Below, piece after piece: positions 7,378-11,491 of a DNA stretch of 11,491 nt. Location: positions 1 through 11,491 of the forward strand of contig JAKSPZ010000011.1 in the NCBI GenBank assembly GCA_024404395.1, given 5' to 3'. This stretch comes from Clostridia bacterium (lineage in GTDB: Bacteria > Bacillota > Clostridia > Christensenellales > Aristaeellaceae). Position numbers and translations under genes: made by a program. Every line of letters begins with the position of its first letter. Position 1 is the first letter of the stretch. The notes beneath the pieces were generated by a model. That model was given only the letters and a program-made list of their open reading frames with translations, did not search any database and had not been told where the DNA came from.

Positions 7378-8541
7378 TTAGCAGCAAGCTGCCTTCAGGA
7401 CCTCGATGGCCTGCTTCAGCTGATCCATGGGGATGTTCAGCGCGGGCAGGAGGCGGACCTTGGTCTTGGCGGTGAGGACCAGAACGCCCTTCTCAAGGCA
7501 AGCCGCGGCGACTTCGCCGGCGGGCTTTTCGGTCTGGATGCCGAGCATGAGACCGAGACCGGTGATGCCCTTGACGCCCTCGGCGCCTTCCAGCATGCTG
7601 ACAATCAGGTCGTGACGCTCACGGACGCCCGCCAGAACGGTCTCGTCCAGACGGCTGAGGATGGACACCGCGCCGGCCGCGCAGATGGGGTTGCCGCCGA
7701 AGGTGGAACCATGGCTGGAAGCGCCCAGGGTATCCTGTGCCTTCTCGCCGATCATGCAACAGCCGATGGGCAGGCCGCCGCCGATGCCCTTGGCGGTGGA
7801 GACCACGTCGGGGGTCACGCCGAACTGCTCATAGGCGTACAGGGTGCCGGTGCGGCCGTTGCCGGTCTGCACTTCATCAACGACGAAGAGGATGTCCTTC
7901 TCGGCGCAGATCTTGGCGGTCTCCTGAACGAAGTCCTTCTCGAGGGGCAGAACGCCGCCCTCGCCCTGAACCATCTCCATCATGACGCCGCAGACTGCGT
8001 TGTTCTCGATGGCAGCCTTCATGGCGTCGATGTCGTTGGCGGGCACATAGACGAAGCCTTCAACGAAGGGACCGAAGCTGTGATGGAACACATCCTGACC
8101 CGTGGCGGACAGGGTCGCGATGGTGCGGCCGTGGAAGGAATTGATCAGGGTGATGATGGTGGGACGGGCACCCTCGCCGTACTTGTCGGAAGCGTACTTG
8201 CGGGTGACCTTGATGGCACACTCGTTGGCTTCCGCGCCGGAATTGCCGAAGAAGACCTTCTTCATGCCCGTGCGCTTGCAGAGCATTTCAGCCAGCTTCG
8301 CCTGAGGGGCGGTGTAGTACAGGTTGGAGGTGTGGGAAACGAGACCCAGCTGCGCGGTGACCGCGGCCACCCACTGCTCGTCGTTGACGCCGAAGGTATT
8401 GACTGCGATGCCGGAGCCCAGATCGATGTAGGTCTTGCCGTCGCTGCCCTTGAGGAGCGCGCCCTTGCCTTCAACGATCTCCACGGGGAAGCGCTTATAG
8501 GTGTTTGCAATGTATGTCTTATCGGTCTCAAATACGTTCAT
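7378..8541 (-). CDS. argD: Acetylornithine aminotransferase ArgD
   Basis: ArgD is a PLP enzyme that converts N-acetylglutamate semialdehyde to N-acetylornithine using glutamate as amino donor, the fourth step of arginine synthesis. The protein has 387 residues, slightly short but normal for ArgD. Visible motifs are LYYTAPQAKLAEML (74-87), FFGNSGAEANECAIK (97-111), SFHGRT (135-140), VVDEVQTGNGRTG (220-232) with PLP-contacting D222, and STAKGIGGGLPIG (248-260) with Schiff-base lysine K251. The ATG overlaps the argB stop codon by one base (TAATG), and AAGGAG lies 9 nt upstream inside argB, so translation is coupled. It is the last gene of the operon, next to a terminator. Related ornithine or 4-aminobutyrate aminotransferases are possible by family, but the operon settles the role. 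Confidence 0.95.
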   Translation of the reverse strand: MNVFETDKTYIANTYKRFPVEIVEGKGALLKGSDGKTYIDLGSGIAVNTFGVNDEQWVAAVTAQLGLVSHTSNLYYTAPQAKLAEMLCKRTGMKKVFFGNSGAEANECAIKVTRKYASDKYGEGARPTIITLINSFHGRTIATLSATGQDVFHHSFGPFVEGFVYVPANDIDAMKAAIENNAVCGVMMEMVQGEGGVLPLEKDFVQETAKICAEKDILFVVDEVQTGNGRTGTLYAYEQFGVTPDVVSTAKGIGGGLPIGCCMIGEKAQDTLGASSHGSTFGGNPICAAGAVSILSRLDETVLAGVRERHDLIVSMLEGAEGVKGITGLGLMLGIQTEKPAGEVAAACLEKGVLVLTAKTKVRLLPALNIPMDQLKQAIEVLKAACC

Positions 8542-9401
8542 TACTTCTTACTCCTTGTAAACATCGTTCCGATACCTTCATCGGTAAGCATTTCCATGAG
8601 GATGGAATGGCGGATGCAGCCGTCCAGGATGACCGACTTGCGCACGCCGCACTCGAGGGCTTCCAGACAGCAGTCCACCTTGGGGATCATGCCGCCGGAA
8701 ATGGTGCCGTCCGCCTTCAGTTCCGCCGCTTCCTCGTAGCTGATGACGGGGATCAGGGACTCGGGATCGTCCTTGTCCTTCAGGACGCCGGGAACGTTGG
8801 TCATATTGATCATGCACTCCGCCGCCATGGCGCCCGCAATGCGCGCCGCCGCGGTATCGGCATTGATGTTGTAGATGTTGCCCTCGGCATCAAAGCCGAT
8901 GGTGGAGATGACGGGGATGTAGCCGCGGCTCAGCAGGTCGAGGATGGGACGGATGTCCACCTCGGTGATCTCGCCCACATAGCCCAGCTGCTCGTCCAGC
9001 ATCTTTGCCTTCATCAGACCACCGTCGATGCCGCAGAGACCGATGGCGCGCCCGCCGATGTTTTCGATCAGCGCCACGAGGCTCTTGTTGACGCCGCCCG
9101 CCAGTACCATCTGCGCGATCTCCGCCGTCTCAAGGTCGGTGACGCGAAGTCCGTTGACGAAACTGGATTCCTTGCCCACGCGCTTCAGCATCTTGCTGAT
9201 CTCGGGGCCGCCGCCGTGCACCAGCACGGGCTTGACGCCGATGAGGGAAAGGAGGACGATGTCGCGCATGACCGCGTTCTTCAGAGATTCGTCCGTCATG
9301 GCGTTGCCGCCGTATTTCACAACGATGATCTTGCCCGCATAATCCTGAATATAAGGCAGGGCATGGACGAGGACGCTCGCCCGCTCGTTATTGCTGATCA
9401 T
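8541..9401 (-). CDS. argB: Acetylglutamate kinase ArgB, arginine-sensitive type
   Basis: ArgB phosphorylates N-acetylglutamate with ATP, the second and usually the controlled step of arginine synthesis. The protein has 286 residues and is complete. Motifs are KYGGNAM (29-35), VHGGGPEI (61-68), NINADTAAAR with D182, TNVPGVL (201-207) and SGGMIPK with K241. The N-terminal helix segment (about 5-20, ASVLVHALPYI) and the C-terminal HSILMEMLTDEGIGTM (265-280) are the features known from hexameric, arginine-inhibited kinases, so feedback inhibition by arginine is likely (inference). GGAGG lies 9 nt before the ATG, just after the argJ stop; the gap is 15 nt. It overlaps argD by one base. Confidence 0.95.
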   Translation of the reverse strand: MISNNERASVLVHALPYIQDYAGKIIVVKYGGNAMTDESLKNAVMRDIVLLSLIGVKPVLVHGGGPEISKMLKRVGKESSFVNGLRVTDLETAEIAQMVLAGGVNKSLVALIENIGGRAIGLCGIDGGLMKAKMLDEQLGYVGEITEVDIRPILDLLSRGYIPVISTIGFDAEGNIYNINADTAAARIAGAMAAECMINMTNVPGVLKDKDDPESLIPVISYEEAAELKADGTISGGMIPKVDCCLEALECGVRKSVILDGCIRHSILMEMLTDEGIGTMFTRSKK

Positions 9402-9416
9402 TTCGGTGTTCCTCCG

Positions 9417-10631
9417 TCAGGTTCTGTAGTCGCCGTTGATCTTGACGTAGTCGTAGGTCAGATCGCAGCCCCATGCGGTCGCTTCGAAGGCGCCGTCGTT
9501 GAGACCGACTTCGATGGTGATCTCATCCTCCAGCAGAACGGTCTTGGCGATCTCCTCGGAGAAGGGAACGCCCGCGCCGTTGCGGCAGACCGCCACGGTG
9601 CCCGCCTTGGAGACGAAGTCCACATCGATCTTGGTAACGTCCACATCCGCGCCGGCATAGCCGATGGCGCAGAGCACGCGTCCCCAGTTGGCATCGGCGC
9701 CGAACATGGCCGCCTTGGTCAGGCTGGAGCAGATGACGGACTTGGCCACGGTCTTGGCGATCGCCTCGGTCTTGCCGCCCGCCGCGTGGCAGACGATCAG
9801 CTTGGTCGCGCCTTCGCCGTCCTTCGCCATGATGCGGCAAAGGGTGTGGGTGACCGCCGCCAGTGCCTCGGTGAACACGGCGTAGTCATCGTTCTCGCAG
9901 GTGATGGGCGCATTGCCCGCCAGACCGTTGGCGATGATGGTCAGGGTGTCGTTGGTGGAAGTATCGCCGTCCACGGACAGCATGTTGAAGCTGTTCTTCA
10001 CGTCCGCCTTCAGGGCTTTGGTGAGCATCTCGGAGGAGATGGCCGCGTCGGTGGTGAGGAAGGCCAGCATGGTGGCCATGTTGGGATGGATCATGCCGCT
10101 GCCCTTGGAGATGCCGCCCAGGTGGCAGATCTTGCCGCCCAGTTCGAATTCTACGGCCACTTCCTTGGAAACGGTATCGGTGGTCATGATGGCACAGGCC
10201 GCCTCGATGGAGCCGTTGTCGGAAAGTTCGGCCACCAGCTGGGGCATTGCCTTTTCCACGGGCTCCGTGGAGAGGGGCTGACCGATGACGCCGGTGGAGG
10301 CGACGATGACATCGTTGGCGGGGATGCCCGTTGCCACCTCGACCAGACGACACATCTCGTTGGCGATGTCCACGCCGTCGGCGTTGCAGGTGTTGGCATT
10401 GCCGCTGTTGCAGATGATCGCGCGGGCCATGCCGTCTTCAAGGTGCGCCTTGGTCACCACGATGGGCGCGCCCTGCACCAGATTCTGCGTATAGACGCCT
10501 GCCGCCGCGCCCCGTACTTCGGAGACGATCAGTGCCAGATCTTTCTTGGTACGATTCTTGCGGATGCCGCAATGGACGCCAGAAGCCTTAAAGCCTTTTG
10601 CGGCACAGACGCCGCCTTCGATAAATTTCAT
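9417..10631 (-). CDS. argJ: Glutamate N-acetyltransferase / ornithine acetyltransferase ArgJ
   Basis: ArgJ moves the acetyl group from N-acetylornithine to glutamate, closing the acetyl cycle; some members also use acetyl-CoA for the first step. The protein has 404 residues, the normal length. The precursor is known to cut itself into alpha and beta chains before a nucleophilic threonine. Here that is HPNMATML (182-189), with T187 starting the beta chain. Other family marks are CNSGNANTCNADG (74-86), ASTGVIGQPL (111-120), TTDT (150-153) and the C-terminal INGDYRT. GGGAGG lies 9 nt before the ATG, 18 nt after argC. With ArgJ present, a separate argE deacetylase is not needed. Whether this one is bifunctional cannot be told by eye. 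Confidence 0.95.
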   Translation of the reverse strand: MKFIEGGVCAAKGFKASGVHCGIRKNRTKKDLALIVSEVRGAAAGVYTQNLVQGAPIVVTKAHLEDGMARAIICNSGNANTCNADGVDIANEMCRLVEVATGIPANDVIVASTGVIGQPLSTEPVEKAMPQLVAELSDNGSIEAACAIMTTDTVSKEVAVEFELGGKICHLGGISKGSGMIHPNMATMLAFLTTDAAISSEMLTKALKADVKNSFNMLSVDGDTSTNDTLTIIANGLAGNAPITCENDDYAVFTEALAAVTHTLCRIMAKDGEGATKLIVCHAAGGKTEAIAKTVAKSVICSSLTKAAMFGADANWGRVLCAIGYAGADVDVTKIDVDFVSKAGTVAVCRNGAGVPFSEEIAKTVLLEDEITIEVGLNDGAFEATAWGCDLTYDYVKINGDYRT

Positions 10632-10649
10632 TTGTTTATTCCTCCCGGA

Positions 10650-11390
10650 TCACGGATTCAGTCCTTCGGTCTCATCAAGTCCCATGGCGATGTTCATGCA
10701 CTGGACCGCGGCGCCGGATGCGCCCTTGCCCAGATTGTCGAATCGGGCGGTGAGCAGGATAACGCGGTCGTTGCCGTCCACGCGGATCTCCATGCTGTCA
10801 TGTCCCGCCAGCGCGTTGGCGCCGTAGAACTTGGGGGTCTCGTCGTTAATAACCTTCACCAGTTTCTGTCCCGCGTAATGATCTGCCATGGCCTCGCGGA
10901 CCGTCTGCAGCGTGGGGCAGCCCGTCATCTGCTCGGCGAACACGGGCACGGTGACCACCATGCCGGCGTAGAAGTCCGCCACGATGGGCGAAAAGGCAGG
11001 CGCGTGGGTCAGACCGGTGATCACCTGCATCTCGGGCAGATGCTTATGCACCTGCGTCATGCCGTACTGACGGGGGCTGAGGTATTCCTCGGGACGCGCG
11101 CCGTCACGGTAGGCTTCGATCATCTTGCGACCGCCGCCGGAGTAGCCGGTGATGGAATTGCAGGTCAGGAGCGTATCCTTGGGGAGCAGTCCGCAGGCCA
11201 CCAGCGGATAGACGGTGGCGATGAAGCCGCCCGCGTGGCAGCCGGGTCCCGCGATGCGCTTGCCCGCGGCAATGGCCTCGCGATGGGCCTTGGACAGCTC
11301 GGGGAAGCCGTACGCCCAGTCGGGGTTGGTTCGGTGAGCGGTGGAAGTATCAATGATGCAGACATCGGGAACCGCCAGCTCCGCCGATTC
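10650..11390 (-). CDS. argC: N-acetyl-gamma-glutamyl-phosphate reductase ArgC, short type, N-terminus missing
   Basis: ArgC reduces N-acetylglutamyl phosphate to the semialdehyde with NADPH, the third arginine step. The 246 recognisable residues begin at ESAELAVPDVCIIDTSTAHR and match the short (about 310-residue) ArgC type. They include NPDWAYGFPEL, the catalytic cysteine in AGPGCHAGGF, SITGYSGGGRKMIEAY, VHKHLPEM with the active-site histidine, and the closing ARFDNLGKGASGAA. About 64 N-terminal residues are absent, including the glycine-rich cofactor motif and the usual LPD segment. The frame stays open to the window edge, and an ATG at 11456 exists, but the residues before 11390 do not resemble ArgC in any frame; they encode a response-regulator fragment in another frame. 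As it stands the enzyme would not work. This is either an assembly join or a genuinely broken gene. Confidence 0.88.
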   Translation of the reverse strand, partial: ESAELAVPDVCIIDTSTAHRTNPDWAYGFPELSKAHREAIAAGKRIAGPGCHAGGFIATVYPLVACGLLPKDTLLTCNSITGYSGGGRKMIEAYRDGARPEEYLSPRQYGMTQVHKHLPEMQVITGLTHAPAFSPIVADFYAGMVVTVPVFAEQMTGCPTLQTVREAMADHYAGQKLVKVINDETPKFYGANALAGHDSMEIRVDGNDRVILLTARFDNLGKGASGAAVQCMNIAMGLDETEGLNP

Positions 11391-11490
11391 CCAGGCTCTT
11401 GAGTTCGTGCTCTTCAGAATCGAGTGCCGTAAAAAGCAAGATCGGCACGTCCGCATCGGTCTTTCGGATTTGCCGACAAGCCTGATGCCC
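11383..11490 (-). pseudogene. Response-regulator receiver-domain fragment fused out of frame to argC
   Basis: In the minus frame starting at 11490, 36 residues read GHQACRQIRKTDADVPILLF, then TALDSEEHELKSLGIG. They align without gaps to the middle of OmpR-type receiver domains: the G after the phospho-acceptor Asp, the IR helix, the VPILLFTA strand with its conserved Thr-Ala, and the L-x-IG that normally continues as ADDYI. The frame departs from the family after GIG, reads nine unrelated residues (GAGGSRCLH region) and stops at 11350-11352. The phospho-acceptor Asp lies beyond the right edge, and the beta-5 lysine is lost at the join. Codons such as TTG, CTT, TTT, TGT and CAA are unlike the neighbouring arg genes, though the sample is small. 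Confidence 0.78.
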
Positions 11491-11491
11491 G

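Follow-up and report, generated by a model that had tools for sequence, protein, structure and literature searches.

A probable chimeric contig end joining a response-regulator fragment to a truncated argC in a draft Clostridia genome

The minus strand at the high end of a contig from the draft genome of a Clostridia bacterium carries two partial genes that run in the same direction in two different frames, i.e. a piece of a response-regulator receiver domain and an argC deprived of its start. We consider this contig end, with a probability of roughly 0.87, to be chimeric, an artefact of assembly or sequencing and not a new gene fusion. What is observed here is the pair of partial genes in separate frames, the unusual codons of the tail, the position at the end of the contig and the bases at the join that fit both protein families. 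The window—the whole stretch of DNA analysed, 11,491 bases long—is the entire contig C13, which comes from a draft that totals 1,300,925 bases over 254 contigs, with a completeness of 68.84% and a contamination of 1.81%. Because the window is the whole contig, the join zone at 11380-11391 lies close to a contig end, 100-112 bases short of it. The features concerned are as follows:

9417..10631, minus strand: argJ, full length, directly downstream of argC (open reading frame of 404 amino acids, PF01960)
10650..11390, minus strand: argC, N-acetyl-gamma-glutamyl-phosphate reductase, type 2, without about 63 N-terminal residues (TIGR01851, alignments)
11380..11391, minus strand: 12-base join zone, GGAATCGGCGGA, which fits either gene (frame layout, relatives)
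11380..11490, minus strand: OmpR-type response-regulator receiver fragment, 37 mid-domain residues with both ends missing, likely foreign (PF00072, match to P0241, codon score)

The two partial genes and the join between them

Read on the minus strand from 11490 downward, the contig translates without a stop as GHQACRQIRKTDADVPILLFTALDSEEHELKSLGIGG. Residues 1-36 of this fragment correspond to positions 57-92 of the 111 positions of the Pfam receiver profile PF00072 (E 0.0028, 18.3 bits), the score of a fragment that stays below the gathering cut-off of 30.2 bits for the whole domain. Far stronger is the match to the regulator P0241, residues 69-105 of which are identical to the fragment at 34 of 37 positions; this identity establishes homology to a genuine full-length regulator, so that the receiver reading is not due to chance, and the gap-free receiver segment recognized from 11490 in the original prediction is borne out. 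P0241 itself has 236 residues, the precomputed domains PF00072 and PF00486 and no ArgC domain, and is found on a separate contig. Searching the protein database with the first 36 fragment residues plus two added residues gave P0241 at an E-value of 1.5e-13, accompanied by seven other proteins at 50-53%. Downstream of the join the receiver reading breaks, A-G-G standing in place of D-D-F.

Concerning argC, the frame from 11489 to 10653 scores 253.6 bits against TIGR01851 (argC_other), above the cut-off of 229.85, which identifies it as a type-2 ArgC. The match covers profile positions 70-310 only and the N-terminal nucleotide-binding domain is incomplete, PF01118 being matched just at positions 85-117 of 121 with 19.2 bits versus the 26 required. 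The ArgC-like residues begin at E34, encoded by the codon 11390-11388. Among 119 ArgC relatives—those listed as the best out of 8,000 scored, with the window's own protein left out—the residue aligned to E34 is a glutamate in 113, and the number of residues ahead of it is 63 in 52 relatives, 64 in 25 and 65 in 29, in agreement with the earlier claim that the ArgC reading starts about 64 residues into the protein. The open ArgC frame runs to the contig end, giving a product of 279 residues, the first 33 of which align unconvincingly with the ArgC relatives, in one set of 24 and another of 39.

The two readings overlap at the join, where the receiver residues G34-I35-G36-G37 are encoded by 11391-11380 and the ArgC residues E-S-A-E by 11390-11379. 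At this site P0241 has G-I-G-G-D-D, and the close ArgC relatives have E-S-A or E-A-A. The switch had been placed within 11382-11391, and there it stays; since P0241 reads G-I-G-G at this point, the shared zone has been widened to 11391-11380. Judged from the sequence, the approximately 12 bases GGAATCGGCGGA could be common to both parent genes.

The nearest proteins that bear an organism name are from Clostridia. The closest other ArgC among the listed proteins, P0002, is 71% identical in an alignment that covers 84% of the query, and the relatives of ArgJ, of about equal length, are 76% identical and below. The exact 279-residue product is recorded in the protein database as P0001, on two contigs. 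The argJ of contig C13 also occurs on two contigs, with the same longest length, and this equal contig count suggests copies of one record; the two contig records may be either such copies or two assemblies. Beyond that second contig record, in which both proteins are identical, no further same-species copy of ArgC or ArgJ, intact or broken, was found, the nearest other proteins being at 71% and 76%. The frames of argD, argB, argJ and argC are clustered at 7378-11390 of the window. It should be pointed out that the names argB and argD, as well as transporter, SDR, Asp23 and FakA-like used for other open reading frames of the window, are by-eye readings.

Origin of the regulator fragment

The codon usage of the tail was compared with a model whose training began with nine gene frames of the window and was then enlarged to 457 predicted genes from 101 contigs. 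The 36 receiver codons score -3.82. The 3,786 native coding windows average 15.64 (sd 6.19), and 20 of them score that low, while the remainder of argC, with 13.05 per 36 codons, is native-like. GC at third codon positions amounts to 0.61 in the tail versus 0.78; taken alone, this is less exceptional, being seen in 6% of windows. Three native receivers elsewhere in the genome reach 0.2, 2.0 and 8.3 over the first third of their length, and their second and last thirds lie between 15.5 and 24.3; by its place in the receiver, the tail fragment belongs to the range of these latter two. Codon models trained mostly on the longest open frames were discarded, such frames being often antisense in this genome. 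A frame of this kind, 965 codons long, is open on the plus strand at 8505-11402 of the window, opposite the arg genes; antisense frames misled the picking of genes by longest open reading frame in this GC-rich genome.

The search for a parent regulator in the genome itself yielded, as the best fragment matches elsewhere, one of 39% (E 0.045) and one of 42% over 26 residues (E 0.43), and the best match of P0241 there is 35% identical. The fragment was matched at an E-value of 0.01 or better in 17 of 60 relatives, the own genome included, the best other match being 46%. P0241 finds matches at 1e-30 in 353 of 391 genomes of the class, the best of them by E-value being 42% identical (4.9e-46). With the limit set just past this value, to 1e-46, matches to P0241 occur in none of 398 genomes of the phylum and in none of 16 genomes of the best-matching family; in the class and phylum searches, the matches listed come from at most seven candidates scored per genome, in genomes drawn from larger groups. 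A narrow scan of the contigs of other genomes with two peptide patterns gave a single weak fragment match, 46% over 26 residues. This match lies at 2154-2231 of locus L060 from the uncultured Bacteroidia isolate RUG13005 and is too weak to name the source. On viral contigs the fragment was matched neither as a protein nor by a 25-base exact pattern. Ten plasmid records match it at 41.7-50%, and towards P0241 all plasmid matches remain below 60% among the 5,000 best-scoring records. The codon usage, the weak matches in the own genome and the lack of a close parent in the lineage samples together suggest that the tail is probably derived from another organism.

Contig ends, argC loci and the genus

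The behaviour of contig ends in this draft was surveyed with 100 of the 253 other contigs, covering together with the window 549,262 of 1,300,925 bases, one end of the contig C1 being left out as C1 was covered only in part. From 201 ends, 109 have a coding neighbour and 92 of these are open to the end, two of them falling below the threshold, namely C13 (-17.6) and L091 (-11.0), the latter continuing, by eye, as an ordinary protein. Among the interior control windows, 53 of 2,742 are below the threshold and 29 of 2,742 are as low as C13, so the end-break score alone is not striking for this contig, and the genome exhibits no excess of frame breaks at its surveyed contig ends (2/92 versus 53/2,742). 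The missing start of argC was not found on the other contigs of the draft, a weak negative since that search returned no candidates at all.

The neighbourhood of argC in relatives was inspected in 25 type-2 loci, selected from 29 from other genomes by leaving out four type-1-like ones (L034-L037). Eleven further argC matches had no locus entry of their own; two of these share one genome, and some belong to genomes already represented. The flank before the argC match comprised 1,500 bases in most loci and less in some (404 in L015, 206 in L019). No regulator was detected in the flanks of the 25 loci by tblastn with three regulators (E 1e-3); argJ was present in 22 of the 25, likewise by tblastn.

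As a whole, the contig fits its genus: the FakA-like protein has copies 74%, 77% (429 of 551 residues) and 68% identical in three of the four other same-genus genomes, with no copy in the fourth, and a 70% identical copy was found in one genome of another genus. Neither argC nor argJ was detected in any of these four genomes, the completeness of which ranges from 74 to 97%. Arginine synthesis appears patchy within the genus.

Explanations of the join and comparison with known systems

The preferred explanation would be the following. The true contig would pass the other arg genes and enter argC as far as about codon 64, where a single chimeric read or a few of them, or else a false short overlap, would have added the 100-112 bases of a response-regulator gene, the donor of which would probably be another organism. 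The switch would lie within the approximately 12 bases seemingly common to both genes, and it is during library preparation or assembly, not in the cell, that the join would have arisen. Chimeric reads and chimeric contig ends are a known kind of fault in short-read metagenome assemblies. A tail of 100-112 bases is shorter than a typical short read, and the shared stretch is shorter than the usual assembly words, which favours a chimeric read or library molecule over a repeat in the assembly graph. A chimeric join near the contig end was also the reading preferred in the original prediction, and it has gained support from the window being a whole contig, from the codon usage of the tail, from P0241 having the two domains usual for a regulator and lying on a separate contig, and from the lack of regulators detected by tblastn at the 25 related argC loci. 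Pointing the other way are the record of P0001 on two contigs, the lack of an excess of faulty ends, the argC start not recovered elsewhere in the draft and the low scores of some native receiver windows.

Another explanation would be a real rearrangement in the cell, in which a deletion or illegitimate recombination through the approximately 12 shared bases would have put the truncated argC behind a partial regulator gene, possibly a horizontally acquired one, leaving a pseudogene. The shared bases would also serve recombination at microhomology, the two genes run in the same direction as after a simple deletion, P0001 stands in two contig records and the contig ends of this genome suffer from no general fault. 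Moreover, with argC and argJ undetected in the four same-genus genomes, it is plausible that arginine synthesis has been lost within the genus. Such a rearrangement has to be reconciled, however, with a join lying so close to the contig end and with the unusual codon usage of the fragment, because of which a deletion would first need a transferred gene beside argC; no regulator was detected by tblastn beside argC in the 25 related loci. The argJ is, in addition, of full length in comparison with its relatives, and the putative argB and argD, so named by eye, occupy long open frames. Recombination, the alternative named at the outset, is therefore judged unlikely, and its most specific version—argC disrupted through microhomology by a horizontally acquired regulator gene in a lineage losing arginine synthesis—somewhat less likely still.

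The remaining two explanations both draw on the ArgC frame being open to the contig end and both appear barely conceivable. A functional fusion, or a product of programmed frameshifting, would combine a receiver domain with ArgC in a protein; the 279-residue open frame would allow for the ArgC part, but the two domains lie in separate frames and neither is whole, the receiver breaking off after position 92 of the 111 in its profile and ArgC missing about 63 residues at its start, so that a working fusion is very unlikely, and a receiver domain is shown for none of the 120 proteins listed as the best of 8,000 scored. A single continuous ArgC interrupted by a sequencing frameshift, with the receiver reading a product of chance, would explain the one open frame; against it stand the poorly aligning residues 1-33, and it is refuted by the near-identity of the other frame to P0241.

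If the contig end is chimeric, as we prefer to see it, the consequences concern annotation only: about 33 N-terminal residues of the 279-residue database protein P0001 are probably spurious, and the contig end is best trimmed at the join. Were the join real, it would represent an ordinary gene disruption.

With regard to known systems, the argC of the window resembles the type-2 ArgC of TIGR01851 in its family score above the cut-off and in the adjoining argJ, and differs from it in the absence of the first approximately 63 residues. The tail resembles the OmpR-type regulator P0241, with its domains PF00072 and PF00486, over 37 mid-domain residues of the receiver, whereas the contig lacks the remainder of the receiver as well as the DNA-binding domain. 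Finally, a tail shorter than a typical read at the contig end and a short shared stretch at the join are the traits that this contig has in common with chimeric contig ends and chimeric reads.
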